Assembly: GCF_038725785.1 (NCBI RefSeq)
Contig: NZ_CP109796.1
Span: 4,154,001-4,218,000 of the forward strand
Direction: 5' to 3'
DNA from: Termitidicoccus mucosus
GTDB lineage: Bacteria > Verrucomicrobiota > Verrucomicrobiia > Opitutales > Opitutaceae
DNA length: 64,000 bases
Within the stretch, counting starts at the first letter, position 1; the number at the start of each line of letters is the position of its first letter. The notes below the pieces were generated by a model. It had not been told where the DNA came from. It was given only the letters and a program-made list of their open reading frames with translations, and searched no databases. Below, piece by piece: positions 8,005 to 29,416 of the stretch. Position numbers and translations under genes: made by a program.

Positions 8005-11000
8005 TCATTCGCGCCGGCGGGTGGACAACATGCGCAGGACAAGGGCCGCCGCGGCGAGGGCGAGAAACCACCCGGACGTAGCGCCGCCGCCGCCGTTTTC
8101 CTTTTCATGGAAGGAGAGGACGGCCTCGTAGCTGGTGACCGAACCGGCGTCATTGGTGACGACGACACGGTAGGAGCCGGCGTCGCCGGGTTTGGCATAG
8201 ACGATGAAAAGCGCGTCCGTGTTGGCGCCTGCGATGTCCGCGCCGTCTTTCTGCCATTGATAGCGCAGTTCGTCGCCGGAGGCCTTGACGGTGAAGCTCG
8301 CGGTGTCGCCGGGGCGGATGGCTTGCGCGACGGGATGGCGGGTAATTCTAGGCGGGGCGAGTTCGCCGACGGTCACCGTGTAGGCGCCGCTGACCACGGT
8401 CTCGCCGGAGGTAAGCGTCAAAGCGACGGAATAGGGCCCGGCGTGGAGGGCGGACTTGGCGTCGGCGACGGAGTAGTTGATGGCGGTGGCATCCGGGATG
8501 GGGAAGTTGTCGAGGTGCCATTGATACGAGACCGGGGAGAGTCCCTGGGCATGGGCCACGAGCATGAAGCTGCCGCCATTGGGCACGGCGTTGTCGGGGC
8601 CGATGACGGAGGCGGAGCCGGACACCTGCGGCGGTGTGAGCGAGGCCGCGCCGGCGGTGTTGCCGGCGTGGACGGGGACGAGCGTGCCGACGGTTTCCGC
8701 GGTATCGAGGACATGGGAGTATGAGGGGACAAACACAATGTCCTCGCCGGGGTCGGTGGTGCCGGTGGTGTTGACATAGGTGTTGCCGATCATGCGGATC
8801 GAGCCGGCCGGCAGCTTGGCGAGAGGGTCGAGCATGTCCTGATAGAGGTTGTGCGCGGAGAGGAGTTGGGACTGGTCGCCGGCGACGGTGGCGGAGGTGT
8901 TGTTTTCGGAGAGGAGGTAGTTGGCGAACATGTGGACGTATCCGAAGCTGGATACCGGCATGCCCGCGACGCAGCCCTCGGACCAGTGGTTGTGGTGCAG
9001 GGTGACGCGGTTGAGTTTGCTTTCGTCGCCCGGCGCGCCGATGCGCATGGCGGTGCGCTGCCCGGCGAAGCCGCCGGTGTAATAGAACTCGCTCCAGGAA
9101 ACGGTGATGTTGTCCGAACCGTTGCCGATGGAGACGAGGGCGCCGTCGCAGTCGAAGAAGGTGCAATGCGTGACCAGCACGCCGGTCGCGCCGGAGAGGG
9201 CGAGGCCGTTGCCGGCGGCATTGGTGAAGTTGAGGCCGCGGAGGATGACGTTGCCGGTGCCGGCGGGGAGGGTGAGCAGGCCGGAAATCGTGGAGTCCGA
9301 GTTTTGCCCGAGAAGGGTTTTGTTGGAGGCAACGGTCACCGGACCGCCGACAGAGGAGAGGTCGAGCAGACCGGAAACAATCACGACGGCGGGCTCGGGG
9401 GACTCGACCAGCGCCTTGAAATCAGCCGCGGTGGACACCAGCACGGCCGGAGTGTCGCCGCCGCCGGTGATGCCGCTGGCGGAGCCGTTGGGAGCAGGCA
9501 GGGCAATGACGGCCAGTTCCAGACGGTCGGAGGAGAGCTCGGGCGAGAGGAGCACGCCGTCGCCGGGCATGGGGACGAGGTCGGCGCCGGTGAGATCGGT
9601 CGAGCCGAAGGTGGCGACGGTGACGCGCGAGCCGGGGGCGAGGGACAGGCCATCGCCGATGCGCAGGGCAACCGGCCCGGCTCCCTGTTTGTTCAGGGCG
9701 GCAACGGTCAGCGGCGCGGCGCCGACGACCAAACCGCCGCCATTGAGCACGACGGGGCGGTTGATGGTGCCTGAACCGCCGAGGAACGCGCCGGCGTTGA
9801 CCGTGAGCGGGTTGGTATCGGCGGCGAGGCTGCCGTTGACCGCGAGCGTGCCGTCGTTGACCGCGATGGCGCCGGTGTGGGTGTTGGCGGCGGAGAGGGT
9901 GAGGGTGCCGCCGCCGGTCTTCGTCATGGTGCCGGAGCCGCTGAGCACGCCGGCGAGAGTGATGTCGTGCGGGACGCCGGCGGCGCTGGCGGCCTTGATG
10001 GTGATGTTGCCGCTGCCGCTGGTGACGACCATCGGGACGGTGGTGGACCAAGTGGAGTCCGCGCCGAGGGTGCCGCGGGTGAGGTTGATGTTGGTGGTGA
10101 AGGCGCCGTTTTTCACGAGGCCTTGTTCGCCGAGGTAAAGGGCGGCGCTGGCGGCGTTGAGGTTGATGGTGGCGGAGCCGGCGGTGACCGTGGAGTCGTA
10201 ACCGAGGGCGATGCGGGCGGCGGTGACGGTGCCGCCGGTGATGTGAAGCTCGGCAATATTGTTGGCGTTGGAGCCGTTTTTGCGGGACATGACGATGCCG
10301 TTGACGGTGTCGGTCGAGACAAGTTCGCCGCTGGTGACGCGGATTTGGCCGCCGCGCCCGCTGCTGGCCTGCCAGCCGTTCCAAAGCGGGCCGGTGACGA
10401 TGAGCTTGCCGCCTTCGACGGAGACCGCGCCCCAAGAGTTGTTGGTGGCAACGCCAAGGGTGCCGATGGTCGCGGTGCCGCCTTTGACAATGAGGCCGTT
10501 GCCATAGCCGCCGGAACCGTCGGCGCTGCGCTGGAGCATGATTTCATCGGCTGTCATGATGCCGCCGGTGACTTGGATGCGGCCGTTGCGGTTGTTGCCG
10601 GAGGTGATGGCCTTGAAGTCGGCCCTGCCGTCGCTCACGAGAATCATGTTTTCCGAGGTGAACACCATGTTCACGCCGGCGGTTGTCGAGAACGTGCCGC
10701 CCGCAACGATGAGGCCGGAGCCGGCGGCGGGAAGGTTGAGCGGCTGGGTCATGTTGAGCGCCGCGCCGGGGCCGAGCCTGAGATAGCCTTGCTGGACACC
10801 GATCGAGCCGGAGAAGACGCCGATGTTGTTGAGTTGAAGCGTGCCCCATCCGGTTTTGAGCAGGCCGGAGCTTGAGCTGAATGGCGTGTCGATGATCACC
10901 GGGTAATTCCGGCCATTGGCGGCCTTGTGGTAGTCCTGGGTGCCGCCATCGCCCATGTTCTCGTAGGTGACTTTGACCTCGGGCGTGGCTCCGCCGAGGT

Positions 11001-12015
11001 TGGCGAGGGTAATGGAGGCGTTGGTCGAAGTGCCGGCCACGCGCCATGCGCCGGGGGAATCTTCATCGGCGTCGGCAAAGATGAGCCGGCCAAGGGTGAG
11101 CGGGGAGTCGAGGGTGACGGTGGCGGTCTCCTCGATGTCGATGCCGCTGAAATCCGCCGTCGCGCCAAGGCCGCCGGCAACGGCGCCTTGATACCACAGG
11201 CTGGCGGCGTTCCATGCACCCGCGCCGTCCTCGCCTCCCTCCCACCAGCCGCTGCCGGGGTGGCGCATGGTGAAGGTCTGGCCTCCCGTGTAGGCGGCGG
11301 TGCCGGAGTTGCCCGCGAGGTCGGTGATGCCGGTCTGGTTGGTTTTGAGATCGAGGCGGAGGGTGTTGTCGCCGCCCGCGCCGGTCACGGAAACATCGTA
11401 GGTGCTGGCGTCAACCTGCGAGAGGTTTGAGATGTCGCCGGTCACGGTGGAGTCGCCTTTCGTGAGCGTGAAGTTGTCTGTCTGCACGCCGTTTACAGGC
11501 TCGGAGAAGGTGACGCGGTAAACGAGATTCTGCTCGGCGGTGCCCGTCCTGTCGGCGGGAGAGAGGCGGCGGATGCCCGCGACGGTGGGCCGGGTCTTGT
11601 CAATCGTCACGACGAAGGGCGCGGACATGGCGCTGGGCGTGCCGCCGGTGTCGGCGGTGGCGAGGAAGGTCGGTGCCGCTGGCGGCGAGGAGGCGATAAA
11701 CCTGGACGATGTCGCCGGCACGCGCGGTCCCGGAAAACGACAGCGTCCCCGAATTGGTGATCTGGTCCGAGTCAGATGAGCCGGTGTCAGGTGTGACCAG
11801 GGTAAAGACCGGCGGCGGGATGCCCATGTCAACGCTGAGCGGAGTCGAGGCGGCGCTGGTGTTGTCCACCAAGTCGGTCGCGGTGGCGGTGAAGGTGTAT
11901 GCTGCGTCAGCAAAGGTGACGCCCGCATCGCAGACCGCATCCCAGTTGCCGTAGCCATCGGCGGTGCCGGTGGCGACGATGCCGAGGACCGCCTCCGACA
12001 CGGTGATGGTGGCAT
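8005..12015 (-). CDS. Secreted pectate lyase, 3' part (second lyase domain, autotransporter repeats, C-terminal tail); frameshifted
   Basis: This open frame becomes coding-like only below about 11690. From 12015 down to there it is an out-of-frame shadow of the upstream ORF. From about 11690 it runs: end of an Ig-like domain (SAPFVVTIDKTRPTV), bacterial Ig-like domain (VTFSEPVNGVQTDNF), autotransporter-associated beta-strand repeats (LLKTGWGTLQLNN, MTKTGGGTLTLSAANTHTG), a pectate-lyase-like right-handed beta-helix (LLGQNSDSTISG, VTHCTFFDCDGALV, VTLHHNHWSEG), two Ig-like domains (SYQWHLDN, YQWQKDGADIAG), then GGGGATSGWFLAL-hydrophobic-STRRRE. It continues the 11600-13693 gene after a frameshift. 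With the 5' part it would make a protein of about 1900 residues. As it stands the second half would not be translated in frame. Confidence 0.7.
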   Translation of the reverse strand: MPPSPCRRRSSASSPPAPPMATATGMRSAMRASPLLTQHTPSPPPRPTWWTTPAPPRLRSALTWASRRRSLPWSHLTPAHLTRTRSPIRGRCRFPGPRVPATSSRFIASSPPAAPTFLATADTGGTPSAMSAPFVVTIDKTRPTVAGIRRLSPADRTGTAEQNLVYRVTFSEPVNGVQTDNFTLTKGDSTVTGDISNLSQVDASTYDVSVTGAGGDNTLRLDLKTNQTGITDLAGNSGTAAYTGGQTFTMRHPGSGWWEGGEDGAGAWNAASLWYQGAVAGGLGATADFSGIDIEETATVTLDSPLTLGRLIFADADEDSPGAWRVAGTSTNASITLANLGGATPEVKVTYENMGDGGTQDYHKAANGRNYPVIIDTPFSSSSGLLKTGWGTLQLNNIGVFSGSIGVQQGYLRLGPGAALNMTQPLNLPAAGSGLIVAGGTFSTTAGVNMVFTSENMILVSDGRADFKAITSGNNRNGRIQVTGGIMTADEIMLQRSADGSGGYGNGLIVKGGTATIGTLGVATNNSWGAVSVEGGKLIVTGPLWNGWQASSGRGGQIRVTSGELVSTDTVNGIVMSRKNGSNANNIAELHITGGTVTAARIALGYDSTVTAGSATINLNAASAALYLGEQGLVKNGAFTTNINLTRGTLGADSTWSTTVPMVVTSGSGNITIKAASAAGVPHDITLAGVLSGSGTMTKTGGGTLTLSAANTHTGAIAVNDGTLAVNGSLAADTNPLTVNAGAFLGGSGTINRPVVLNGGGLVVGAAPLTVAALNKQGAGPVALRIGDGLSLAPGSRVTVATFGSTDLTGADLVPMPGDGVLLSPELSSDRLELAVIALPAPNGSASGITGGGDTPAVLVSTAADFKALVESPEPAVVIVSGLLDLSSVGGPVTVASNKTLLGQNSDSTISGLLTLPAGTGNVILRGLNFTNAAGNGLALSGATGVLVTHCTFFDCDGALVSIGNGSDNITVSWSEFYYTGGFAGQRTAMRIGAPGDESKLNRVTLHHNHWSEGCVAGMPVSSFGYVHMFANYLLSENNTSATVAGDQSQLLSAHNLYQDMLDPLAKLPAGSIRMIGNTYVNTTGTTDPGEDIVFVPSYSHVLDTAETVGTLVPVHAGNTAGAASLTPPQVSGSASVIGPDNAVPNGGSFMLVAHAQGLSPVSYQWHLDNFPIPDATAINYSVADAKSALHAGPYSVALTLTSGETVVSGAYTVTVGELAPPRITRHPVAQAIRPGDTASFTVKASGDELRYQWQKDGADIAGANTDALFIVYAKPGDAGSYRVVVTNDAGSVTSYEAVLSFHEKENGGGGATSGWFLALAAAALVLRMLSTRRRE

Positions 12016-13693
12016 AGGGCGCGGCGGTGCCGCTAAAGGTTTTTTCGGTGGCGGAGACGACGAAGCGGTCGATCACGGGCGCGGCATCGGCGGTGTTTTT
12101 CACGTGCACGGCGTGGGCGGCGGAGGGGAGCGAGAGGGTGTCGTCGGCGCGCCGCACGCGGGCTGTGAAGGCGTATTGGCGCTCCGTCACGCCGCTGGGC
12201 GCCAGGCTCCAGTTGCCGCCGGCGTCCGCGGTCGTCGTGCCGACGAGATCGCCGGTATCGACCCGGGACACCTCCACGGTCGCGCCCGCCGGGGCGGTGC
12301 CATGGATGGAGAGGGCGGCGCTGTTGGTGATGCTGCCGCCGGTGAGCGGGTCGGAGGCGGACACTCCCGAGGCCGGCGTGATGCCGGTGATGACGGCCTC
12401 GGGCACGCCGGAGGTGACAATGGAGTTGAGGTAGAATTCGAGGTTGGTGTAGCCGTCGGCGCGCACGGTGTTCGCGTAGGCGGTGTCCGCCGGGGAGGGG
12501 CGGCCCATCGCGCCGGCCCACCAGTCGGGGATGCCGGTGGCGTTGGTATCGGCGGGCGGGATGCCGCCGGTCATGGCGGGCTGGCCGCCGACATCGCCCT
12601 CGCGCGCGACGAGGGCGCCGAGCATGCCGTAGGAGGAGAGCTGGGCGATCATGCGGGCGTCCACGGGGTCGCGACGGTCGGAGGCGCCGGCCTTGGCCAT
12701 GACTTTTTGGAGGGCGGTCGCGGCATCGTCCGTGGTGACGGCCACGGGGGAGAGGTTGCTGCGCGAGGTCGCGAGCGCGGCGCCGGCCCTGGTGAAATCG
12801 GTGTCCGTGACAAGACGCCCGTTGAGCGAGCCGTTTTTGTCGGTGTCCGCGTAATTGCCGCTGTGATAAACGTGGTCGGTGGAGCCAAACCCGGAGATGA
12901 AGCTGCTCGATGAGCTCGGGCCGCCGATAAAATAATTGTTGATAAGGTCCTGATAGAAATGGCCCGAGGAATGCCCGCCCACGAAGCCAGAGCCGCCCCA
13001 GTTATAGACGACGTTGTTGATGTATTCGATGTCGGCCTTGGCCTTGGGGTTGCGGCTGTGGTTGTTGGCCCAAAAGGTGTGGTGGACGGTGATTTTTTTC
13101 GCCCCCTCGAAAAGCGCGCCGAGATATTGCGGGAGGATGGCCTCGCCGACGAGGCAGTATTGGAAGGTGATGTCGGTGGAGTTGCTATCGAGTTTTATAT
13201 TGTCCCAACGGCCCCAGGTCACGGAGACGTGATCGAAGATGACATTGGCCGCGCCGCCGGCGGAGAGGGCGTAGTTGCTGCTGGGCATGTCGATGGAGCC
13301 GTGGATGCGCAGGTAGCGGCAGATGACGTTATTCTTGAAGGCGACCGTGTTGCCGTAAACGGTGATGCCGTCGCCCGGCGCGGTCTGGCCGGCGATGGTG
13401 ATGTTCCCCCGTACGGTGACGGTGCTGTTGATATTGATGACGCCGCCCACGGCAAAGACGACGGTGCGGGGAGTTGACCCGGTGGTGACGGCGTCGCGGA
13501 AGGAGCCCGCGCCGGAGTCGTTCAGGTTGGTGACGATATAGATCTCGCCTCCACGCCCGCCCGTCGCGGCGGCGCCGAAACCTTCCGCGCCGGGAAACGC
13601 CGGCACGGCGCCGAGGCAGGCGAGGCTGAGTGTGCTTGATACAAGCGCGGCGGCGAGCGCACGCGTCAGTTTGTGGAAGACATGCGGGTTCAT
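11600..13693 (-). CDS. Secreted pectate lyase, 5' part (PL1-type), reading frame broken near 11680
   Basis: 697 codons. Signal peptide at 1-29 (LAAALVSSTLSLACLGAVPA). Residues 30-390 form a PL1-type pectate lyase beta-helix: FPGAEGFGAAATGGRGG at the mature start, FRDAVTTGSTPRTVVF, ITIAGQTAPGDGITV, VIFDHVSVTWGRWDN, ITVHHTFWANNHSRNP. It would cleave de-esterified homogalacturonan outside the cell or at the surface. Residues 430-665 are Ig-like modules (ITGITPASGVSASDPLTGG, APVIDRFVVSATEKTFSG). The last about 25 residues (LPRHRRHRRHAQRHV) are out-of-frame sequence: the homologous continuation (TFLATADTGG) is in another frame at about 11680. Alignment to the sister Ig modules suggests some 25 residues are also missing at the joint, so a deletion rather than a single miscalled base is likely. 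Confidence 0.8.
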   Translation of the reverse strand: MNPHVFHKLTRALAAALVSSTLSLACLGAVPAFPGAEGFGAAATGGRGGEIYIVTNLNDSGAGSFRDAVTTGSTPRTVVFAVGGVININSTVTVRGNITIAGQTAPGDGITVYGNTVAFKNNVICRYLRIHGSIDMPSSNYALSAGGAANVIFDHVSVTWGRWDNIKLDSNSTDITFQYCLVGEAILPQYLGALFEGAKKITVHHTFWANNHSRNPKAKADIEYINNVVYNWGGSGFVGGHSSGHFYQDLINNYFIGGPSSSSSFISGFGSTDHVYHSGNYADTDKNGSLNGRLVTDTDFTRAGAALATSRSNLSPVAVTTDDAATALQKVMAKAGASDRRDPVDARMIAQLSSYGMLGALVAREGDVGGQPAMTGGIPPADTNATGIPDWWAGAMGRPSPADTAYANTVRADGYTNLEFYLNSIVTSGVPEAVITGITPASGVSASDPLTGGSITNSAALSIHGTAPAGATVEVSRVDTGDLVGTTTADAGGNWSLAPSGVTERQYAFTARVRRADDTLSLPSAAHAVHVKNTADAAPVIDRFVVSATEKTFSGTAAPYATITVSEAVLGIVATGTADGYGNWDAVCDAGVTFADAAYTFTATATDLVDNTSAASTPLSVDMGIPPPVFTLVTPDTGSSDSDQITNSGTLSFSGTARAGDIVQVYRLLAASGTDLPRHRRHRRHAQRHVRALRRDD

Positions 13694-13844
13694 ATAAAAA
13701 CTTTTATTATTCGGGCATGCCTCCTGTTCAGAACGCGGGGCGAAAAACAGGGCGGCAGGGGAATGGTGTGGCTGGAAAATAGAGATAAAGGGCGACGGGT
13801 GCCGGGGAGGTTTCCACTACAATTCGACTCACACCGACAAACAA

Positions 13845-13860
13845 CCGGTATATATACCGG
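13845..13860. promoter_or_regulatory. Perfect palindrome upstream of the pectate lyase gene, candidate operator
   Basis: CCGGTATATATACCGG is a perfect 16-base palindrome about 150 bases upstream of the lyase start, in an AT-richer stretch. A regulator binding site is inferred from symmetry and position only. Confidence 0.4.
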
Positions 13861-13922
13861 ACAGTCCGTGTGCGAACACGGCGACGGTGATTTCGAAAAC
13901 CGGCGGCATGTGATGCGCCGGT

Positions 13923-13960
13923 ATGACAAAGCCGGGGTCATGCGGCCCCGGCTTTGTCAT
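13923..13960. terminator. Long perfect hairpin between two lyase genes
   Basis: ATGACAAAGCCGGGG and its complement enclose a short loop. The stem is long and GC-rich but lacks a T-run. It lies downstream of the rhamnogalacturonan lyase and upstream of the pectate lyase promoter region, so termination or mRNA protection is plausible. Confidence 0.45.
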
Positions 13961-13990
13961 ATATCATGATTGCGCGGCGTGCCGCGAATC

Positions 13991-14131
13991 ATGCCAATTC
14001 CGAACGAATTCACTCTTTTGGAGGGCCGAGCTCCTGCGAGGCCGTCGCGGAAAAACGTCACGTATAACCGCGACGGCCTCGCAGGAGCTCGGCCCTCCAG
14101 CAAAAAGGGTGATTTTTGGGGGAAATGGTAT
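13991..14131. repeat. MITE-like palindromic element, core type C (copy C1)
   Basis: The core arms GGAGGGCCGAGCTCCTGCGA (from about 14020) and complement (to about 14099) flank a short loop. The outer ends are ATGCCAATTCCGAACGAATT on the left and the complement of ATACCATTTCCCCCAAAAAT on the right. The right end matches the left end of element B1 although the core differs. It lies 9 bases beyond the stop of the rhamnogalacturonan lyase. Confidence 0.8.
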
Positions 14132-14140
14132 CAGGCGGCT

Positions 14141-17100
14141 CTATAAATGGCGGCGTCCGGCCAGGCCGCGCAGGGCGAGGAGCGCGGCGGAGAGGGCGAG
14201 GAGCCACCAAGTGGGGGCGCCGCCACCGCCGCCGCTTGGTTTTTCCTCAAGGGAGAGGCGGGCCTCGTAGCTGGTGGCCGCGCCGTGGTCGTTGCTCACG
14301 ATGACGCGGTAAACACCGGCATCGGACGATTTCGCATAGACGACGAAGAGCGCGTCGGAGGTGGCGCCGGCGATGTCCACGCCGTCCTTCTGCCATTGGT
14401 AGCGCAGGCCGTTGCCGGTCGCGTTGACGCTGAAGCTCGCGGTGCCGCCGGGCTGGATGGATTGCGCGACGGGGTGGCGCGTGATGCGCGGCGGGGAGAC
14501 ATCGGCCGCGGTGATTTTCGCGGATTCAAAGGCGTCCACGGCGTTTTGCAACATGCGCAGGGCGGTAGCCGTCTCGGTCTGCGTGACGCCGGTTTTGCCC
14601 GCCACGGCCTTGACGGTGCCGATGACCGCGTCAAGCGCGTCCACGGCGGCCTGCGGATACTGGCCCTCGGCAGTGCCGACAACGGCGTCGGCCAAGAGCG
14701 CGTCGGCGTCGGCGATCCCGGCGTTCAACGCCGAGAAGTCCACGACCAATGCCGCCGTCTCGAAGGCCTCCACGGCGGTTTGCAGCGTGTCGAGCGCGGC
14801 GGTGATGGCGGCTTGCGTGGGGGCGGGCGCGGCGGCGGCGTTGAGCGCGGCGTCGATGGCGTCGGCGAGCGCGTCAATGTCGGCCTGCGCGTGCTGGCCG
14901 TGGCCGGAACCGGCGGAGGCGCGGGCGTGGAGCGAGGCGGCGCCGGCGATGGCGGTTTGCAGCGCGGAGAAGTCCACGGTCACGCGCGCCGCCGCGAACG
15001 CGGCCCCGGCGTTTTGCAGCGCGCCAAGGGCGGTGTTGACCCCGACTGGCGTGATCCCGGCCTGGCCGGAAACGGCTTGCGCGGTGTCGCGAGCGTCGGC
15101 GAACACGTCGATGGCGGCCTGCGGATGCCCGCCCTGCCCGACTGGCAGCAGCGCGCGGCAGCGTCGCGTCCGCAGACAGCCGCCGTGAACGCCGTCATCA
15201 CAGCGGGCTATGGTGACGGCAAGCGTGACGACGACCGCTTCCGCATCGGCAATGGCGGTGGCGAGCGAGTCAATGTCGGTCTGCGAATGCTGCCCATGAC
15301 CCTCGCCGGCAAGGGCGCCGGAATGCAGCGCGCCGGCTTCGCCGATGGCGTCGAGCAGGGCGGTGAAATCGACGGAAATCACGGCGTCCTCGAACGCTTC
15401 CATCGCGTTTTGCAGCGCGGTGAGCGCCACGTCCAGTTCAGCCTGGGTGACGTGCTGTTTGGTGCGGACGGAGGTTACGGTGCTGATGGCCGTGTCCAGT
15501 GTGTCGAGGGCGCTTTGCGGGTATTGCCCGTCGCCGGGGCCGACGCTGGCGGCGGCGAGGAGGGCGTTTGCGTCGTCGAGCATCTCGTCGAGCGCGGTGA
15601 AGTCCACTGCGATTCGCGAATCGGCGGCGGTGTCGGTGGCGGCTTGCAGGGAGGCGAGCAGGGCGGGGGTGTCCCCGCCTTGCTGCGCGGTGACTATGGC
15701 GGCGGTGAGGGCGTCGATGACGGCTTGCGGATACTGGCCATCGCCGTTGCCGATGGAGATGTCGGCGAGAAACGTCTGGGCTGCAGCGATGGCGGCGGTG
15801 AGCGCGTCGGCGGGAGTGCGGACAACCAGCTCAAGCCTGGCTGAGACCACCTGCACGGCGGCGACGTCGGACAAGCGTGCGAAGTCGGCGTCTGCGAGGG
15901 TGGTGGCGCCGATGGTGGCCAGCGTGTAGGTGCCGGCGGTGGCGGGGAGGCCACCCGCGACGGTTACGTTGATGCGGCCGGCGCCAGTCTTGGCGAGCGT
16001 TTGCCCGATGGCGAGGGCGGGGGGCGCGGACGTATCGAGGACGAGGGTGGCGCCAGCATGGAGGATGACGGGGCGGTTGATGGTGCCGCTGCCGGAAAGG
16101 GTCGCGCCACTGGCGACGGTAACGGCGGCGGTGGCGGCGGCGAGGGAGCCGTTCACGTTGAGCGCGCCCTCGCTGACGGCGACCGGGCCGGTGAAGGTGT
16201 TCGCGGCGGCGAGCGCGAGCGTGCCGGAGCCGGCCTTGGTGAAGCCGCCGGCGCCGGAGAGGACGCCGTTGAGGGTGATGTTACGGGCGGCGCCGGCCTC
16301 GTCGTCGGCGCGCAGTTCGATGTCGCCGGACAGCGTCATGGGCACGCTGGAGCTCCAAGTGGCTTTCGCGCCGAGCACGCCGCTGGTGAAATTGACGGAC
16401 GTGACAAGGGCCGCGCCCCCGTTTTTCACGATGCCGCCGGAGCCGAGGAAGAGCGTGCCGCCGTCGATGTTCACGAACGTGGTGCCCGAGGTGACGCTGG
16501 CCGAGGCGCCGAGGGTGATTTTCTCGACCTGGCTCACGCCGCCGAGGAAGTTGAGGTAGGAGGTGTTGCCGGCGGAGGCGCCCGGCCTCGCGTTCATCAC
16601 GATGCCGGAGGCGGTGTTGGTGGAGACGAATCTGCCGCCGGTCACGCGGAGGGCGCCGCCGCGGTTGGAGTTGGTGTTGAGATTGGCGATGGTGAGCACG
16701 CCGCTCACGGTGAGCTGTCCGCCCTCGACGGACATCAGGGCGTTGGAGGCCCCGGTGCCCAAGCTTACCGCGCCGCTCACCGTCGTGGTGCCGCCGGTGA
16801 TCACGATGCCCCGGTCGAAGTTGGTGATATTGCCGTCAGTGCTGCGCTGTATGGTGATGGATGACAGCGACACGAGGCCGCCTTCAAAGCGGACGGCGAG
16901 GCCGTTGCCGTTGTTGTCCGACGTGAACGCGCCGCTGCTGAGGGTGCCGGACTTGACCGTGAATCTTGGCGTCGCGCCAGTGATGCTTACCGAGGAGGGT
17001 CTGGCATAGCCGCCATCAAGGACGAACGCCTTTTCGGTTTGCACGGTGAGGGTGCCGAGCGAGCCGTAGTAGCCGCCGGTGGTGACGGCGAGGGTGCCGG

Positions 17101-20100
17101 CATTCACGCTGATGGCTCCGGAGAGCGGGCTGCTGCCGGAGAGGGTGAGCGCGGCCGTGCCGGACTTGTTGAAGCCGACCGTGCCGGCGAGAGGCGCGGC
17201 GATGACGGTGTCGGCATCCACCGTGACGACGGGTGCGGCCAAGCCGGTGACGAGCGTGAGCGCGACGGGCACGCCGGACTTCGGAGCGATGCGCCAGCTG
17301 CCGGCGGTGCCGGCATCGGCGTCGGCGAAATTGAGGTTCGTGATCGTCCGCGCGGCATCGAGGGTCACGACGGTTTCGCCGGTGATGTCGAGCGTGTCGA
17401 ACTTGGCGGTCTTGGAGGGGCCCTCGGCCATGACGGTGTTTTCCCAGTTGTCGAAATCGCCCCAGTTTCCACCGGCGGGGTTGGTCCAGGTGCCGTCGCC
17501 CCGGAGCGAGCGGGTGTAGGTTTCACTGGCGGTGAAGTCCGCAGCCATGGCGTTGCCAGCGATGTCGGTCAGCCCGGCCTTGTTGATGTTCAGGGCGAGC
17601 CTGCCCTCGCCGGTCACGTTGGTGGAGACAAGGACAATGCTCGCGTCATCGGGCGTCACTTGGTGGGTGAATGACGTGACGGCGAGGTCGCCTGCGGAAG
17701 GCACGGGCGAGAAGCTGGAGGCTTGCAGGCCGGAGACGGGTTCGGAAAACGCGACCTTAAAGACGAGCGCGCCGGCCTGAACGGTTTCGGAGAGGGGGTT
17801 GTGGCGGGTGACGGCGAGCACCGTCGGAGGCGCGGTGTCGATTTTCACCGCGACGGGAAGGGACGAGGGGCTTTTGGCCGGACCGCTGGCAGTCACGGCG
17901 GCGAACACATACTCGCCGTCGGCCAGCGTGCCGGCGGCGGGATATGGCAGGCTCCATGCGCCGGCGGCATCCGCCATGACCGTGCCGATGTCGCCGGTGC
18001 CGGCGAGCGAGATCGTGACGGAGGCGCTGGCGCCGGCGGTGCCTTGCAGCGTGATGACGCCGGCGCTGGTGATGAAGTCGCCAGCGGTCGCGGTGTCGGG
18101 CGTGATGCCGGTGATGGCCGGGGTGGTGATGGCAGTGTCAACGGTCTCGGTGGCCGAAGCTCCGGCGCCGGGGTTGCCGGCGATGTCCTCCACGGTGGCC
18201 GTGAAGTTGTGCGAGGCTGGCGTGACGGTGGCTGCGTAAGGGAACGACCAGACTCCCGCCGCGTCCACGAGGGCGGCGCCAAGCACGGCACCGTCCATGC
18301 TGACCGTGACGCGGCCAAGCGGGATGGCGGTGCCGGTGATGAGGAGGCCGGAGGCGCCGCTGGACACACGCTCGACGACGGGGGCAGGCGGGGGCGCGGT
18401 GAAGATGACGACGGAGAAGACAGCGGATTGCAGGCCGGTGCGACCCTGGCCGTCGGTCGCGGTGGCGGCGAAGGGATACTCGCCCTCGGGGAGCGTGGTG
18501 GCGGTATAGTCGAATGTCCATGCGCCGGTCACGCCGTCCGCCACGGCGGCACCGAGCTGACCGTCGCCGGGGAGGTCGAGGCGGAAGATTTTAACCGTGG
18601 CGCCGGGCTGTGCTGTGCCGTGGAGGGTGATTTGCGGTGTCTTGGTGATGGCGTCGGAGGCGGACAGGCCGCTGTCGGGCGTGATGCCGGTGATGACCGG
18701 CGCCGCCGGGCCGAGCAACTGGGGAAGCGAGGTGGCGAAGACGGGGCGGGGCGGGGCCTCCATCTGCGCGCCGATGTAGTAGCTGGGGTGCGGGGGCTGG
18801 TTGTAGGCGACGTTTTGCCAGGCGATGGCGAGGCGATACTGGCGGTCGTGCATGAGCGTGGTGAAGCGATGGTTTGTCGCGGCGGTGGTGGTGTAGATGC
18901 GCAGGGCGGTGTCGCCGCTCTCGGCAACGATCAACTCCTCACGCCAGTCGCCGAGGATGTCGCCGCTGAGGGCGGGGTTGGCCTTGGTGCCGTTGCCGGA
19001 GTGCACGCCGGAGGGGGCGAACAGGGAGGAGGCGCTGCTGCCGTTCCATTTGGTGATGGTGGTGCCGTCGAGGAGCTCGCGCTGGAGGTCGCCGTCCCAC
19101 CAGATCATGAAGTTCATGGCGGGGCGGTTGGCGCTGATTTGCGTGAGCGTGGAGGCGTCGATGACATTGGCGGCGGCGCCCCAGACTTGGTAGCCGGGGT
19201 AGCGCGCGTCGATGTGGCCCGCGCCGGCGCGTCCGGTGTCGCCGGTGGCAGTGAGGCGGAGGAGGATTTCGCCGGTGCGGACGTCACGGAGGGAGTGGCC
19301 GTAGGGAGATTCCTCGTGGCAGACCCAGACTTGCTGGCCGGGGCGGCTGGGAATCATTTTCGAGACGTGCATGGCGTCGCCGTGGCCGAGGCCGGTGGAG
19401 TAGAGGCCGGTGCCGTCGTTGTTGACGGTCATGGAGCCGTAGATGATTTCGTCGCAGCCGTCGCCGTCCACGTCGGCGACGGTGAGGTTGTGATTGCCCT
19501 GGCCGGCGTAGGCGCTGTTGGGCTTGCCGTCGGCGCCGTTGCCGGGGGCGGCGCTGTCGAAGAGCCAGCGTTGCGTGAGCTGGCCGTCGCGCCAATCCCA
19601 CGCGACGAGGAAGGTGCGCGTGTAATAGCCGCGGCACATGATGATGCTGGGACGCCTGCCGTCGAGGTAGGCGACGGCGGCGAGGTAGCGGTTCATGCGA
19701 TTGCCGTAATTGTCGCCCCAGAGCGCGTTTTGGCGGGTGGCGTCGGGGTTGTCGGCGTGGTTGTCGGGGTCGCGCTGGGGCAGGTATTGGGTGGTGGCGA
19801 GCGCCGCGCCGGTGAGTCCGTCGAAGACGGTGAGGAACTCAGGGCCGCTGAGGACGTAGCCGTCGGTGGTGCGGTAGTCGGCGGCGGCGTTGCCGATTAC
19901 GGTGCCGTCGCCGTCGATGGTGCCGTCGGCGGTCTTGCAGGCGAGCTCGGCTTTGCCGTCGCCGTCGAAGTCATAAACGAGATACTGCGTGTAGTGCGCG
20001 CCGGAGCGGATGTTTCTGCCGAGATCAATGCGCCAGAGGCGGGTGCCGTCGAGCTTGTAGGCGTCGAGGTAGGTGTTGCCGGTGTAGCCGGCCTGGGAGT

Positions 20101-20641
20101 TGTCCTTGGCGTTGGAGGGATACCACTTGACGATGATCTCGTATTCGCCGTCGCCGTCGAGGTCGCCCACGGAGCAGTCGTTTATCTCGTAGGTGCAGGT
20201 GGAGTTGTCGGGCATCGTCATGCTTCCGGGGCGCTGGAGCGCGATGCGCAGGTAAGGCTGGCTGGTGTTGATGCCCGCGGCCATGGCGAACGAGCCGTCC
20301 GCCGTCCTTTCCACGCCGTAGGTGACCGGGCGGACAGTGTAGGTGTTTTGTTTGGCGAAGTCCACCGGCGTGTCCTCGAAGCTGGTGGCGGCGGTGAGCG
20401 GCTGGGCGTTGAGTTTCACGGGCGCGCCGCCGTCGGTGCTGCGGTAGAGGTTGAAGGCGGTGCCCTCGGGGTCGGTGCCGAGGAGGCGCCAGCTTACGAA
20501 GGCCTTGGATGACGAGGCGGGCACGGCGACGACGCCGCGCCCGAGGTTTTCCATCAGGAATGGAGCCGTCTGGGCGGAGATGGCCGCAATAATTCCGGAT
20601 GCGGCGAGCAGGAGGCATGACAAGAATTTCGTATTGTTCAT
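14141..20641 (-). CDS. Giant secreted rhamnogalacturonan lyase (PL11-type) with Ig, autotransporter and FIVAR repeats
   Basis: 2166 residues from the Met of MNNTKFLSCLLLAASGI; upstream codons to 20710 are not signal-like. Residues 1-24 are a signal peptide. About 25-620 is a PL11 rhamnogalacturonan lyase (MENLGRGVVAV, WRLLGTDPEGTAFNLYRS, SVGDLDGDGEYEIIVKW, VYDFDGDGKAELACKTADG, VADVDGDGCDEIIYG; Ca-binding DxDGDG motifs). This enzyme class cleaves the Rha-GalA backbone of pectin RG-I. About 640-1050 holds Ig-like modules (VITGITPDSGLSASD). About 1050-1610 holds autotransporter-associated strand repeats. About 1610-2035 holds FIVAR-type helical repeats (GQYPQAVIDALTAAI). Next come an Ig-like domain (YQWQKDGVDIAG) and the tail GGGGGAPTWWLLAL-hydrophobic-GRRHL. 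One FIVAR repeat (bases about 15130-15240) is damaged. The modules imply surface display and carbohydrate binding. Confidence 0.88.
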   Translation of the reverse strand: MNNTKFLSCLLLAASGIIAAISAQTAPFLMENLGRGVVAVPASSSKAFVSWRLLGTDPEGTAFNLYRSTDGGAPVKLNAQPLTAATSFEDTPVDFAKQNTYTVRPVTYGVERTADGSFAMAAGINTSQPYLRIALQRPGSMTMPDNSTCTYEINDCSVGDLDGDGEYEIIVKWYPSNAKDNSQAGYTGNTYLDAYKLDGTRLWRIDLGRNIRSGAHYTQYLVYDFDGDGKAELACKTADGTIDGDGTVIGNAAADYRTTDGYVLSGPEFLTVFDGLTGAALATTQYLPQRDPDNHADNPDATRQNALWGDNYGNRMNRYLAAVAYLDGRRPSIIMCRGYYTRTFLVAWDWRDGQLTQRWLFDSAAPGNGADGKPNSAYAGQGNHNLTVADVDGDGCDEIIYGSMTVNNDGTGLYSTGLGHGDAMHVSKMIPSRPGQQVWVCHEESPYGHSLRDVRTGEILLRLTATGDTGRAGAGHIDARYPGYQVWGAAANVIDASTLTQISANRPAMNFMIWWDGDLQRELLDGTTITKWNGSSASSLFAPSGVHSGNGTKANPALSGDILGDWREELIVAESGDTALRIYTTTAATNHRFTTLMHDRQYRLAIAWQNVAYNQPPHPSYYIGAQMEAPPRPVFATSLPQLLGPAAPVITGITPDSGLSASDAITKTPQITLHGTAQPGATVKIFRLDLPGDGQLGAAVADGVTGAWTFDYTATTLPEGEYPFAATATDGQGRTGLQSAVFSVVIFTAPPPAPVVERVSSGASGLLITGTAIPLGRVTVSMDGAVLGAALVDAAGVWSFPYAATVTPASHNFTATVEDIAGNPGAGASATETVDTAITTPAITGITPDTATAGDFITSAGVITLQGTAGASASVTISLAGTGDIGTVMADAAGAWSLPYPAAGTLADGEYVFAAVTASGPAKSPSSLPVAVKIDTAPPTVLAVTRHNPLSETVQAGALVFKVAFSEPVSGLQASSFSPVPSAGDLAVTSFTHQVTPDDASIVLVSTNVTGEGRLALNINKAGLTDIAGNAMAADFTASETYTRSLRGDGTWTNPAGGNWGDFDNWENTVMAEGPSKTAKFDTLDITGETVVTLDAARTITNLNFADADAGTAGSWRIAPKSGVPVALTLVTGLAAPVVTVDADTVIAAPLAGTVGFNKSGTAALTLSGSSPLSGAISVNAGTLAVTTGGYYGSLGTLTVQTEKAFVLDGGYARPSSVSITGATPRFTVKSGTLSSGAFTSDNNGNGLAVRFEGGLVSLSSITIQRSTDGNITNFDRGIVITGGTTTVSGAVSLGTGASNALMSVEGGQLTVSGVLTIANLNTNSNRGGALRVTGGRFVSTNTASGIVMNARPGASAGNTSYLNFLGGVSQVEKITLGASASVTSGTTFVNIDGGTLFLGSGGIVKNGGAALVTSVNFTSGVLGAKATWSSSVPMTLSGDIELRADDEAGAARNITLNGVLSGAGGFTKAGSGTLALAAANTFTGPVAVSEGALNVNGSLAAATAAVTVASGATLSGSGTINRPVILHAGATLVLDTSAPPALAIGQTLAKTGAGRINVTVAGGLPATAGTYTLATIGATTLADADFARLSDVAAVQVVSARLELVVRTPADALTAAIAAAQTFLADISIGNGDGQYPQAVIDALTAAIVTAQQGGDTPALLASLQAATDTAADSRIAVDFTALDEMLDDANALLAAASVGPGDGQYPQSALDTLDTAISTVTSVRTKQHVTQAELDVALTALQNAMEAFEDAVISVDFTALLDAIGEAGALHSGALAGEGHGQHSQTDIDSLATAIADAEAVVVTLAVTIARCDDGVHGGCLRTRRCRALLPVGQGGHPQAAIDVFADARDTAQAVSGQAGITPVGVNTALGALQNAGAAFAAARVTVDFSALQTAIAGAASLHARASAGSGHGQHAQADIDALADAIDAALNAAAAPAPTQAAITAALDTLQTAVEAFETAALVVDFSALNAGIADADALLADAVVGTAEGQYPQAAVDALDAVIGTVKAVAGKTGVTQTETATALRMLQNAVDAFESAKITAADVSPPRITRHPVAQSIQPGGTASFSVNATGNGLRYQWQKDGVDIAGATSDALFVVYAKSSDAGVYRVIVSNDHGAATSYEARLSLEEKPSGGGGGAPTWWLLALSAALLALRGLAGRRHL

Positions 20642-20809
20642 GGGAGAAGGGCAGGGAATTGAAAAAACATCCGGGTTTATCGGACGGGATTCAGGGAATG
20701 GCAGGGTCAACTATTGTCGTGCCGCGGGCGGCACTTTATGAATGTAAAATAAAACTAAAGCAGCCGGACTTTCATTTCGCCCCTCCCCTGCCGGCAAAAT
20801 CATCTACTG

Positions 20810-23093: not shown

Positions 23094-23205
23094 GACCAAT
23101 TCCGAACCAATTTCAGACTTATCAAGCTAGGGCGAGGCGTCCCGCCGAGCCGTTGCAGGCCCACGGCTCGGCGGGACGCCTCGCCCTACCCAAAAGAGGG
23201 TCTCC
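23093..23205. repeat. MITE-like palindromic element, core type B (copy B3)
   Basis: The left end AGACCAATTCCGAACCAATT begins at the last base of the kdsD stop codon. The core arms (23129-23190) are AGGGCGAGGCGTCCCGCCGA and complement. The right end is degenerate (AAGAGGGTCT). The following stretch to 23504 holds no convincing gene. Confidence 0.7.
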
Positions 23206-23504
23206 AAGCACTCACCAGTCCTGGGCTTTCGCGATGGCCTCCCAGGAGGCGCGCACCTCGGGCGGGAGCGGCTGAGCGGCGAGCCAAGTGACGGCGAGGG
23301 AGTTGCATGACGCCGCCGACGCTGCCAACCCGCCGCCATCGCAGTCAACGCACGCAAACCGGCGCTCCCCGGAAATTTGCGCGTCTCTTGGCCAAAGGTG
23401 CGGGCAAAGAACCATGCCCGTGTGGTTGTTTTCCACGGTCGTCCTGCAAAAAGTGGGCAAAACCTTCCCCCTCCGTCCCCCGTCCCGGTCGTTGCCCGCT
23501 TGAT

Positions 23505-25118: not shown

Positions 25119-25168
25119 GCCGTTTCCCCTCCGTCCGCAAAACGCCCGATTTCAACCCATCCCGTTTT

Positions 25169-28100
25169 ATGAAAACCCGTCCCTCTTCCGCCCTGCTTCC
25201 GCGCCGCGTCCCCCTTTCTCTGTTCCTGCTGCTTTCCGTCCTCGGCCTTCAACTCCCCGGGCTTCTCTCCGCCGCGCCGCTCTTCGAGAGCATGCTGCTT
25301 TTTCCCGGCAGCGAAAACGACCGGCCCAACTACCGCATCCCCTCGCTCGCCCGCGCGAAAAACGGCGACCTCCTCGCCATCGTGGAGAAGCGCAACAGCG
25401 GCATCGGCGACGTGGGCGACACCGACATCGTCATGCGCCGCAGCACCGACAACGGCCGGACCTGGGGCGAAATCGAAACCATCTTCGACGACGGCATCAG
25501 CACCTGCACCGACATCACCACCGTCGTCACCGATGCCGGCCCGAGTTCCAGCCGCATTTTTCTCTTCTTCCTCAAAAACAAAAAGAAGTTCGCCTATGTC
25601 TACAGCGACAACCACGGCGCGACGTGGGCGAACGCCGGCGTGAATCCAAATCCTGGATACGAAGGCCTCCCCATGCCCTTCGTCATCCACGACCAGGTCA
25701 CGGTCAACGACCACGGCGCGAAAGCCGGCTGGGATTACCTCGACGGCGCCGCCTCCAACAACGCCGCCGACCAGCCCGCCGCGCCCGGCTCTCAATCCGC
25801 CGAGTGGGAGCGTGACTGGACGCAGCGCTACGGCATCGGCCCGGGCAACGCCGCCATCCAGCTCAGGCACGGCGCGCACGCCGGCCGCATCCTCGTCTCC
25901 GCCCGCCACCGCGAGCGCATCGGCGGCGGCATCCAGACTTGGGCGCACGTCTTCCACAGCGACGACGGCGGCGCCACTTGGCAGCTCGCCCCCGCCGCTA
26001 CCCGCATTCTCCAGAACGGCAGCGAGTCCCAGCTCGTCGAGCTGCCCGACGGCACCGTTTACTTGAATCTCCGCAACGAAACCACCGCCGACCGCGCCGC
26101 CGACGCCTCTTTCCGCTACGTCGCCGTTTCGACCGACGGCGGCTCCACGTGGGGCGCGCCCGCCAACGCGCCCGGCCACAAGGACACCCAGCTCGTCTCC
26201 ACCGTCTGCCACGCCGCCGTCGAACTCTACGAGAATCCCGCCAACGCCTCCGATCCCGACAACGGCACCGTGCTCTTCGCCAATCCGTTCAGCAGCCATC
26301 GCGAGGAGGACCACCCCTACGGACGCTACCGCATGAGCATGCGCCGCAGCACCGCCGTCGCGCCCGGCGGAGCCGTCACTTGGAGCGACCCAAAAGTCAT
26401 CTATCCGCATCCCGCTTCCTACGCCGACATCGCCGTGCTGGCGGACGGCGACATCGGCCTCATCTACGAACGCGGCGACCCCGGCACCAACAGCTATTGG
26501 AGCGAGCTCCACTTCGCCCGCTTCAACCTGGAGTGGCTCAAAACTCCCGCCGCCCGCCCCGCCACTGTGCCCGTGCGGCTCGCAAATCTCTTCTCGGAAG
26601 GCATGGTGCTCCAGCGCGGCAAGGACGTTCCCGTCTGGGGTTACGCCTCCGCCGGCGACACCGTCACCGTCGCCTTCGCCGGGCAGACCCGCACCGCCAC
26701 CGCCGACGCCGACGGGCGCTGGGTGGCCGTGCTCGACCCGATGGACGCCAGCGCCACGCCGCGCGACATGACCGTCACCGGCCCCGGCGCGGACAACGTC
26801 ATCCACATCGGCAACATCCTCCTCGGCGACGTGTGGATCGCCTCCGGCCAGTCCAACATGAATTGGGACTTGAACATGGTCGCCCGCGAATACCCGGACG
26901 GAGCCGCCGCGATCCAGGCCGACATCGCGGCCGCCACCCACCTCGTCCGCCAGTTCGAGGCCGTCGGCACCACCGGCTCCGGCGCGGACACCTTCGGGCG
27001 CAACGAGCCCGACGACAACGTCACCGGCGTCTGGACCTGGAGCAGCCCCAGCACGCTCACCACCGGCAATTTTTCCGCCACGGCCTGGTATTTCGCCCGC
27101 GAAATCTGCGAAAGGACGGGCGTGCCCGTCGGCATCATCAACGCCTCCGTCGGCGGCACCGTGATCGAGGCGTGGGCCGACCCGCAGACCCTGGACGACC
27201 CCGCGCTCGCCTTCGCCCGGGAGCCCTGGCCGGGCAAGGGCAAACGCGACACCGCCTCCAACCTCTACAACGCGCTCGTGGCCCCGCTCACGCCGGTGGC
27301 GCTGAAAGGCTTCATCTGGTATCAAGGCGAGCACAACGCCGCCCGTGCCGGCAGCTACGCCGCCGTCTTCACCCCCTTCATCAACGGCTGGCGCGCCCGC
27401 TTCGACGCGTCCTCCGCGCCTTTTTATTTCGTCCAGCTTCCCAACTTTTCCACCTCTGACGACTGGGTCGGGCTCCGCGCCGCGCAGGCCACCGCGCTCG
27501 CCCTGCCCGCCACCGGCATGGCCGTGGCCATCGACATCGGCAACGACGGCAACATCCATCCGGGCAACAAACGCGATGTCGGCCTGCGCCTCGCCCGCCT
27601 CGCGCGCCATCACGACTACGGAGAGACCGCGCTCGAATACTCCGGCCCGGTGCCCGGCAACGTCGCCGCCGCCGGCAGCCAGCTCGTCATCGCTTTTGAC
27701 CACGCCGACGGCCTGCATCTGGACACCGCGAAAAACCGCCCCGGCCTCCCCGCCTTTGAAATCGCCGCCGCCACCGGCGCTTTTTTCCCCGCCACCCCCG
27801 CGCTCGAAGGCCGGACCCTCCGCCTCTTCGCGCCCGAGGTGCCCGCGCCGCGTCGCGCCCGCTACGCCTGGCACAACACGCCGTCCACGCCACTCTACAA
27901 TGCCGCCGGTCTCCCCGCCGCGCCCTTTTCCGTCGAAGCCGGCCTTTCGCCTTCCGATTTAATGCCGCCCGGCGACCAGACCGCCGCTCCCGGCCAGCAG
28001 ATCACCCTCCGCGCCGACATCGCCGGGGATTCCACCGCGGCCTTCATCCGCTGGCAGGTCTCCGCCGACGGCGTCAACTGGCGCGACATCGGCGCCGACC

Positions 28101-29416
28101 CCGCCGACGCCGGTGTTTATTCCGGAGAAACCACCGCCGCGCTCGTCATCAAGGCCGCGACCGCCGGCATGGACGGGCTCCGCTTCCGTTACCTCGCCGG
28201 CACGACGGCGGACAACGGCGTGCCCAGCCCGGTCTCGACGCTCGCCGTGGCCGGCGCGCCGGCTTGGTCCGCCCCGGTGGCGCTCGCCACCGTTCCTGAC
28301 GGCGGTTACTATGTCGCCACCGGCCCCGGCACCTACATCGCCCAAGGCGACGGCATCTGGCGCGTCCTGCCCGACGGCAAAGCCTGGTTTTTTGCCGGTG
28401 ATAACCAGGGGACCGTTGTCGCCGGTTCCATCGGTTTTAATGGCTGGAATCCGTATTCATCCTTCCACTTCGCCCCGCAGGCTCTCGCCCTCCGTTCGGG
28501 CACGCTCTACGCGGCAGACATCTACAACGATGTTATCAACGCCATTTCCACGTCCGCCACCGCCCCGGGCTCCATCGCCATTTTTGCCGGTAATTCCGGC
28601 ACGGGCGGCTTCGCCGACGGCACCGGCACCGGCGCGTATTTCAAAGACCCCTCCGGCCTCGCCTTCACCCCCGACGGCACGCTTTACGTCGCCGACACCG
28701 CCAACCGCGCCATCCGCAAAATCACCCCCGGCGGCGTTGTAACCACCCTCGTCACCACCGCCAGCCTCGCCGCGCCCGCCGGCCTCGACATCTCGGCCGA
28801 CGGCGGCACCCTCTTCGTGGCCGACGCAGGCGCCCACATCATCCGCGCCATTGCGCTGCCCGGCGGCGCGGCCACCCTCGTCGCCGGTGTGACCGGCTCC
28901 GCCGGTTGCTCCGAGGGCTCCGCCGGGCAAACCCGCCTCGACTCCCCCGCCGATCTGGTCGTGGCCGATTCGGGAAACCTCTACGTGGCCGACACGGGCA
29001 ACTCCCGCATTCTCGAAATCACTCCCGCCGGCGTCACGCGCACCCTCGCCGGCAGCCCTGCCGGCGAACCCGGTTTCATTGATGCCAACGGCACCGCCGC
29101 GCGTTTCGACCGACCCCACGGCCTGATCCTCGACGCTTCCGGCACGCTCCATGTGGCCGACACCGGCAACAGCGTCCTCCGTCGCATTTCACCTGCCGAC
29201 GAAGTCACGACCCTGCTCCTCTCCCAGACCACGCCTCCCGGCGGCGAGAACAACAACGGCGGAAACGACAATGGCGGCGAAACCAATAATGGAGGAAGCG
29301 GCGGCGGTGGCGGCAGTGGTGGCGGCGCGCCCGGCGCATGGTTCTTTTTCGCCTGTGCCGCCATCACGACCGTGCGCCTCTGCAAACAATTCCGCGGCGC
29401 ATCCCACAGCGGATGA
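25169..29416 (+). CDS. Sialidase - sialate O-acetylesterase - NHL-repeat fusion, secreted
   Basis: 1415 residues. Signal peptide 1-36 (SLFLLLSVLGLQLPGLLSAA). About 40-460 is a GH33-type exo-sialidase: the RIP motif YRIPSLA and Asp-boxes STDNGRTWGE, SDNHGATWAN, SDDGGATWQL, STDGGSTWGA. About 465-935 is a sialate O-acetylesterase of the SASA/SGNH type: LFSEGMVLQRGKDVPVWG, the catalytic Ser in IASGQSNMNWD (about 560) and FIWYQGEHNA. About 940-1030 is Ig-like. About 1040-1350 contains NHL beta-propeller repeats (GTLYVADTANRAIRKITPGG, GNLYVADTGNSRILEITPAG). An Asn/Gly-rich linker leads to GGGAPGAWFFF-hydrophobic-basic. De-O-acetylation removes acetyl groups that block sialidases, so the fusion makes biochemical sense. 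Domain calls are solid; the exact substrate is inferred. Confidence 0.9.
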   Translation: MKTRPSSALLPRRVPLSLFLLLSVLGLQLPGLLSAAPLFESMLLFPGSENDRPNYRIPSLARAKNGDLLAIVEKRNSGIGDVGDTDIVMRRSTDNGRTWGEIETIFDDGISTCTDITTVVTDAGPSSSRIFLFFLKNKKKFAYVYSDNHGATWANAGVNPNPGYEGLPMPFVIHDQVTVNDHGAKAGWDYLDGAASNNAADQPAAPGSQSAEWERDWTQRYGIGPGNAAIQLRHGAHAGRILVSARHRERIGGGIQTWAHVFHSDDGGATWQLAPAATRILQNGSESQLVELPDGTVYLNLRNETTADRAADASFRYVAVSTDGGSTWGAPANAPGHKDTQLVSTVCHAAVELYENPANASDPDNGTVLFANPFSSHREEDHPYGRYRMSMRRSTAVAPGGAVTWSDPKVIYPHPASYADIAVLADGDIGLIYERGDPGTNSYWSELHFARFNLEWLKTPAARPATVPVRLANLFSEGMVLQRGKDVPVWGYASAGDTVTVAFAGQTRTATADADGRWVAVLDPMDASATPRDMTVTGPGADNVIHIGNILLGDVWIASGQSNMNWDLNMVAREYPDGAAAIQADIAAATHLVRQFEAVGTTGSGADTFGRNEPDDNVTGVWTWSSPSTLTTGNFSATAWYFAREICERTGVPVGIINASVGGTVIEAWADPQTLDDPALAFAREPWPGKGKRDTASNLYNALVAPLTPVALKGFIWYQGEHNAARAGSYAAVFTPFINGWRARFDASSAPFYFVQLPNFSTSDDWVGLRAAQATALALPATGMAVAIDIGNDGNIHPGNKRDVGLRLARLARHHDYGETALEYSGPVPGNVAAAGSQLVIAFDHADGLHLDTAKNRPGLPAFEIAAATGAFFPATPALEGRTLRLFAPEVPAPRRARYAWHNTPSTPLYNAAGLPAAPFSVEAGLSPSDLMPPGDQTAAPGQQITLRADIAGDSTAAFIRWQVSADGVNWRDIGADPADAGVYSGETTAALVIKAATAGMDGLRFRYLAGTTADNGVPSPVSTLAVAGAPAWSAPVALATVPDGGYYVATGPGTYIAQGDGIWRVLPDGKAWFFAGDNQGTVVAGSIGFNGWNPYSSFHFAPQALALRSGTLYAADIYNDVINAISTSATAPGSIAIFAGNSGTGGFADGTGTGAYFKDPSGLAFTPDGTLYVADTANRAIRKITPGGVVTTLVTTASLAAPAGLDISADGGTLFVADAGAHIIRAIALPGGAATLVAGVTGSAGCSEGSAGQTRLDSPADLVVADSGNLYVADTGNSRILEITPAGVTRTLAGSPAGEPGFIDANGTAARFDRPHGLILDASGTLHVADTGNSVLRRISPADEVTTLLLSQTTPPGGENNNGGNDNGGETNNGGSGGGGGSGGGAPGAWFFFACAAITTVRLCKQFRGASHSG

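Follow-up and report, generated by a model that had tools for sequence, protein, structure and literature searches.

What is the role of the tail, a glycine run followed by a hydrophobic segment and a basic end, that closes three carbohydrate-active proteins in a 64,000-nt stretch of the Termitidicoccus mucosus genome (the window)? Our analysis indicates that it is very probably a sorting signal of the rhombosortase type in Opitutaceae, related or analogous to GlyGly-CTERM, with the motif GGGAP[S/G]xW and its own rhombosortase subfamily, here called clade B. The preliminary description of this DNA had read the tail as a shared tag of this type, and the reading is now supported by a family of tails in the genome, by the way in which clade B tracks the tail across genomes, and by the adjacency of tail and clade B genes. 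Coordinates are positions in the window unless prefixed G000:C1, where G000 stands for the T. mucosus genome.

The three tails were read in the translated open reading frames (ORFs) at the ends where the preliminary description had placed them: NGGGGATSGWFLALAAAALVLRMLSTRRRE in protein A (8008..8097, minus strand; tail-profile match at G000:C1:4162011-4162097), GGGGGAPTWWLLALSAALLALRGLAGRRHL in protein B (14144..14233, minus; G000:C1:4168147-4168233) and GSGGGAPGAWFFFACAAITTVRLCKQFRGASHSG in protein C (29312..29413, plus; G000:C1:4183312-4183398). The catalytic domains that precede them are indeed unrelated, namely Pectate_lyase_4 in A, RGL11 in B, and a BNR sialidase-like domain with SASA and NHL in C. 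Other proteins with the tail, for which the preliminary description asked, are plentiful. A profile of the three window tails finds 45 places in the 7.92-Mb genome at E ≤ 10, counting the three in the window, and a profile of 30 tails (A2) gives 49 matches at E ≤ 0.01; A2 was built from tails of this same genome and is circular for that count, while relatives outside A2, among 252 genomes of the family, match it with E down to 8e-13. Trimmed at the Gly run, the 30 tails align without internal gaps to the consensus GGGAP[S/G]xW[F/L/Y], followed by some 11 residues that are mostly hydrophobic, then by an Arg in fixed position and a basic end. GGG is invariant in this alignment, and Ala, Pro and a later Ala are nearly so; among 29 tabulated tails, the Trp is in place in 19 and the Arg at the helix end in 25. 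As to the GAPxxW feature proposed earlier, tail A reads ATS where the others read APS, APG or APT. Of 45 tails, read in 44 frames of the genome, 40 end no more than 38 residues before the stop codon and five are internal; a crude signal-sequence test was positive in 33 of 40 tail proteins. Pfam domains in 43 proteins, namely these 40 together with A, B and C, scanned over at most 1150 residues each, include NHL (16), Ig_3 (10), BNR_2 (7), PATR (6) and RGL11 (3), making the tail common to many kinds of protein.

A candidate processing protease, likewise called for by the preliminary description, is present twice over. Two proteins exceed the curated 84-bit cut-off of the rhombosortase model TIGR03902, one at C1:3593896-3594372 (minus, 103.8 bits) and one at C1:151185-151655 (plus, 100.4 bits); a second scoring gave 103.3 and 100 bits. 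Of the 132 genomes in the order sample, 18 have a match over this cut-off, and the 14 rhombosortases from the family form three groups by identity. One group, clade B (G000a, G091b, G114b, G066b, G080b and G035), is present in exactly the six tail-bearing genomes of the order sample, the four other sampled family genomes having neither tail nor clade B. In a tree of 83 rows, the 51 clade B rows lie on one side of a single branch (support 100/99); clade A (5 rows) is supported at 99/98, and clade C poorly. Beyond the order, a sample of 387 genomes from the phylum has clade B (at least 250 bits) in 17, all of them Opitutaceae by a family assignment that we infer, and A2 matched no tail in the 122 order-sample genomes from other families; in the samples searched, the variant is therefore specific to these bacteria, as had been suspected. 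Ser106 and His169 are conserved in all 51 clade B rows, as are the catalytic Ser and His in the 32 other rows, and a GLSA motif occurs in 44 of the 51. Judged by a fold model of L219 (pLDDT 74.9, pTM 0.73), which is 93% identical to the T. mucosus clade B protein, clade B is predicted to have a rhomboid-like fold, the matches of the model in the PDB at E ≤ 0.001 being GlpG entries (TM 0.55-0.65).

The association was followed through the 252 family genomes, with the tail called by A2 at E ≤ 0.01. The tail profile matches 71 genomes, and the scores of the clade B profile fall into two humps: 64 genomes reach at least 227 bits, and the best protein below them has 131.5. Both tail and clade B are present in 58 genomes, clade B only in 6, the tail only in 13 and neither in 175 (Fisher 4e-37, uncorrected for descent); by genus (n=49), both occur in 16, clade B only in 1 and the tail only in 3 (p=4.5e-9, likewise uncorrected). 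The search for co-occurrence in other genomes that the preliminary description recommended thus singles out one rhombosortase, clade B, as the one that tracks the tail. Tail numbers per genome in this search are lower bounds, as 32 candidates were scored in each (T. mucosus 32 versus 49).

The gene neighbourhood points the same way. Among 54 loci on the named genome contigs that were scanned, 45 (L219-L263) are clade B, from Opitutaceae, Opitutia or Verrucomicrobia. A tail gene lies upstream on the same strand within 600 bp in 28 of these 45, ending 21-213 bp away, as opposed to none of the nine non-clade-B loci; by eye, a tail-like end adjoins clade B in three more (L224, L253 and L254). The adjoining tail gene was scanned for domains in G292, G080 and G268, and in all three it encodes a matrixin-type metalloprotease (Peptidase_M10). 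The pair has the same order in G066 and G080, and the two genes are convergent in G114. At the Ereboglobus-type loci L219-L222, as in T. mucosus, the DNA read has no tail gene beside clade B. According to the available part of an earlier survey, genomes with a single target tend to keep it together with the rhombosortase, whereas those with many targets scatter them (PMC3237569), a pattern with which the arrangements seen here agree.

How does the tail relate to the tags already described? Its Gly-rich motif, hydrophobic helix and basic end have the form of GlyGly-CTERM (TIGR03501), but proteins A, B and C give no match to that model at E ≤ 1 (cut-off 15.5 bits), and of their isolated tails, A reaches 13.4 bits while B and C do not match. 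Three of 10 isolated tails exceed the cut-off (16.9, 18.4 and 16.0 bits), none of them from the window. The MYXO-CTERM model TIGR03901 is exceeded by none of the 10, the best score being 19.8 against a cut-off of 20. A weak resemblance to PGAP-CTERM (NCBIfam NF050189) was also seen, with matches to 7 of 30 tails and a best E of 0.025. Since the models of known tags match so weakly, sequence alone cannot separate a GlyGly from a MYXO tag; the enzyme evidence does. Of the likeness to GlyGly-CTERM that the preliminary description drew, the tripartite form and a rhombosortase in the genome hold up, but the window tails stay under the cut-off, and A, B and C should accordingly not be filed as TIGR03501 members. 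That the tail works like GlyGly-CTERM is better supported than that it is a member of it; we regard it as a distinct, family-specific and expanded variant of the rhombosortase-type tag, outside TIGR03501.

The second rhombosortase of T. mucosus, of clade A, has a different neighbour. Upstream of it lies the gene of a VIT/VWA protein whose C terminus consists of GGGGGGALESTD, a helix and basic residues (L090:7807-10871, which is G000:C1:3593806-3596870, minus strand), and in five family genomes (G000, G050, G091, G114 and G126) clade A adjoins a protein that ends in GGGGGGA[L/I]xxxD/G, a helix and basic residues. A pair from Opitutus terrae with a tail of the GGGGGGAl..xD type is already listed in the available part of PMC3237569, and its rhombosortase presumably belongs to clade A. 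Judged from these neighbourhoods, it looks as if each of the two rhomboid clades in a cell is paired with its own tail. A further pairing of tail and enzyme exists perhaps in genus g106, where six genomes (G348, G349, G353, G356, G357 and G358) have one weak tail match each and lack clade B; five of them have a different rhomboid at about 90 bits, while in G353 nothing matched as a rhombosortase at E ≤ 1e-12.

Several observations weigh against clade B as the partner of the tail, or against a rhombosortase tag altogether. The contingency and genus statistics ignore common descent within and above genera. Thirteen of the 252 family genomes carry the tail without clade B; 10 of these have one weak match each (E 2.4e-4 to 0.0098), while G344 (at least 14 tails, 68% complete), G274 (at least 5, 85%) and G157 (at least 2, 94%) have several, G157 also having a protein that scores 131 bits against the clade B profile. 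Conversely, six genomes have clade B without a tail match. In T. mucosus itself, the 14 kb read around clade B contain no tail gene, and the clade A rhombosortase might share the work on the tail. MYXO-CTERM models match 21 of 30 isolated tails at E ≤ 10, compared with 19 for GlyGly-CTERM, and one of 10 tails exceeds the cut-off of a second MYXO-CTERM model, TIGR03382 (16.7 versus 15.85). Finally, GspD-, GspE- and GspF-like genes stand in a row and each has a type II secretion system (T2SS) model as its best match, but their scores lie below the NCBI cut-offs (GspD 302 against 351, GspE 546 against 630, part of GspF 149 against 424).

These points have to be set against the alternatives. The hydrophobic segment is flanked by basic residues like any stop-transfer helix, and the tail could in principle be a plain C-terminal membrane anchor, that is, a Gly linker and a single helix with positive-inside residues that is never cleaved. 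Such an anchor, however, needs no fixed motif before its helix, whereas GGG is invariant and Ala and Pro nearly so in the 30 tails, and it would neither track nor adjoin one subfamily of rhomboids; we consider it improbable. Still less likely is a chance product of composition, in which GC-rich DNA would have converged on Gly runs and helices with no shared function. While the genome is GC-rich, as are codons for Gly-rich and Ala/Leu-rich stretches, the motif is position-specific and, in all but five of the 45 tails read, close to the end of the frame, 181 of the 252 genomes of the same family have no tail match at E ≤ 0.01, and the co-occurrence with clade B speaks against this explanation, which we regard as hardly tenable.

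A rhombosortase is, moreover, not the only sorting enzyme in the cell. Three exosortases, two CPBP (myxosortase-like) proteins and the clade A rhombosortase are encoded in the genome, and the tails do match MYXO-CTERM models weakly, such that another of these enzymes could be the one that processes the tail. Exosortases were set aside, as they are present in 229 of 252 genomes, in 66 of 71 with the tail versus 163 of 181 without (p=0.63), and show no association. CPBP proteins were set aside as well; they occur in all 40 genomes tested, tail-positive (20) and tail-negative (20) alike, which is uninformative rather than evidence against them. The Cys before the helix, described as invariant in MYXO-CTERM in the available part of PMC11980579, is missing from 29-30 of the 30 aligned tails, with one internal tail reading APC, and the clade A rhombosortase adjoins its own, different tail in the five genomes named above. 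Processing by one of these other enzymes seems very unlikely.

By what route would a rhombosortase tag act here? By analogy with Vibrio, Sec would export the precursor until the hydrophobic segment came to rest in the inner membrane, leaving the Arg-rich end on the cytoplasmic side. Cleavage within or just past the Gly run would then fall to the clade B rhomboid, with its Ser106 and His169. The new C terminus would become linked to a lipid, as for VesB of V. cholerae, for which cleavage after a Gly pair and lipid linkage are known (PMC6219818, as far as available), and a type II system would then deliver the protein to the surface of the cell. That the tail proteins are exported, cleaved and anchored is predicted from what is known in Vibrio; cleavage by clade B, the cut site, the lipid and the surface location are likewise predictions.

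The tail is not always terminal. In eight uninterrupted frames from six genomes, the tail comes after a surface protein and leads, by way of a short basic loop and a second hydrophobic segment resembling a signal, into a TonB receptor: L091, L199 and L201 in T. mucosus, L206 (G215), L207 (G344), L208 (G213), L209 (G214) and L210 (G091), with the 5' ends of L207 and L209 lying outside the DNA read. The Pfam TonB plug and barrel were found in L091, L199, L201 and L206, and L207 to L210 are probably receptors as well, judged by their similarity to these: L208 to L201, 67% over 858 residues; L209 to L199, 49% over 1128; L207 to L091, 48% over 1086; and L210 to L091, 31% over 1084. The part before the tail is conserved too (L201 and L208, 65% over 2826 columns), and the pre-tail parts hold an NHL, Ig, He_PIG, LamG or pectate lyase match. 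Codon-position bias continues through the junctions, and the recurrence of fusions across genera argues against assembly errors. In L202 (G035) and L203 (G214), the tail is followed in one frame by a signal-like segment, a second protein and a second tail. Taking the ten junctions together, there is no ATG, GTG or TTG between the tail and the second helix in L201, L206 and L207, and there is such a start codon in the other seven, where a separate start is thus possible.

We regard it as possible, though somewhat less likely than not, that the tail also serves as an internal cutting module of natural polyproteins, from which a surface protein and a TonB receptor would be released separately. 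On this reading, a large exported protein with propeller, Ig, lectin or pectate lyase domains would be joined through the tail, a basic loop on the cytoplasmic side and a second signal peptide to a complete receptor. Cleavage would take place ahead of the first helix, by the rhombosortase, and behind the second, by signal peptidase, so that a single translation product would give rise to the anchored surface protein and the outer membrane receptor in equal numbers. If so, this would be a bacterial polyprotein strategy in which a protein for binding or degradation is coupled to its transporter, an unusual route to both from one reading frame. The receptor fusions are new here and are the most unusual part of the finding. 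Two related frames stand apart. L200 (G000:C1:1588992, minus) also has a TonB receptor after its tail, but the receptor is in another frame and a second signal segment is not clear; the locus looks like a frame-shifted relative of the fusions and is not among the eight. L218/L159 (G000:C1:102260-112456) is a frame of 4057 residues with two tails; it was not counted as a receptor fusion, as the stretch after the first tail resembles translated non-coding spacer.

The genes in the window that bear the tail deserve a closer description, here from the ORF list and a domain scan. Protein A, an ORF of 1336 aa (8005..12015, minus), contains Big_12, PATR, Pectate_lyase_4 and Ig before its tail. It overlaps, in a different frame, an ORF at 11600..13693 (minus) that has a signal-peptide-like start, as judged by eye, a PelZ-like pectate lyase match and Big_13. 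Given this overlap and the domain matches, the two are probably the 3' and 5' parts of one large pectate lyase gene (8005-13693, minus), which appears to be split by a frame shift at about 11.6-11.7 kb, either natural or an assembly error. Protein B (14141..20710, minus) is a rhamnogalacturonan lyase (RGL11) with Big_13, PATR, FIVAR and Ig, its FIVAR and PATR repeats lying between the lyase part and the Ig part. Protein C (25169..29416, plus) combines a BNR sialidase-like domain, a SASA acetylesterase and NHL repeats. Among these genes sits a PATR-repeat protein (23307-25118, plus) that lacks such a tail.

Our findings bear on a gap left in the survey of Haft and Varghese (PMC3237569), whose available text reports a rhombosortase of Verrucomicrobia for which no target was recognised, and suggests a divergent target form. 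The tail described here is a candidate for that form, as judged from Opitutaceae genomes rather than from the genome in question. It would provide Opitutaceae, a family of polysaccharide degraders from the environment and the gut, with a predicted means of holding dozens of enzymes at the cell surface. Furthermore, with two rhombosortase clades and different neighbouring tails in one genome, the substrate specificity of intramembrane proteases becomes directly testable. In the excerpts of the open-licence literature available to us, we found no earlier account of the GGGAP[S/G]xW tail or of rhombosortase tags before TonB receptors.

Among known systems, the tags PEP-CTERM and VPDSG-CTERM share the tripartite tail, and their exosortases are encoded in the genome; however, the tail lacks a PEP-like motif and exosortase does not track it. 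MYXO-CTERM with the myxosortase MrtX, a CPBP protease, is alike in its tripartite tail and its dozens of targets per genome, and differs in the signature Cys that the tail lacks, in the family of its enzyme and in the non-discriminating presence of CPBP proteins. The clade A pair has in common with the clade B system some of the genomes, the enzyme family and a target gene beside the enzyme, but has another tail motif, another rhomboid clade and, in T. mucosus, a VIT/VWA target. GlyGly-CTERM with RssP (TIGR03501/TIGR03902, VesB of Vibrio cholerae) likewise has a tripartite tail, many targets per rhomboid, a rhombosortase over the curated cut-off, unrelated target domains that include metalloproteases, and, in many genomes, a target that adjoins the enzyme (cf. 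Haft and Varghese, 2011, in the part available). What sets the Opitutaceae system apart is its GGGAP[S/G]xW motif with a fixed Trp and Arg, its own enzyme subfamily with the GLSA motif, the 49 matches in one genome as compared with 1 to 13 per genome in the available text of the 2011 report, and the internal tails before TonB receptors. For the latter, a precedent is on record in the accessible part of PMC11980579 as an atypical case: MXAN_5598 carries an internal MYXO-CTERM before an outer membrane beta-barrel, and so resembles the internal tails of Opitutaceae in having its motif inside the protein and an outer membrane barrel after it.

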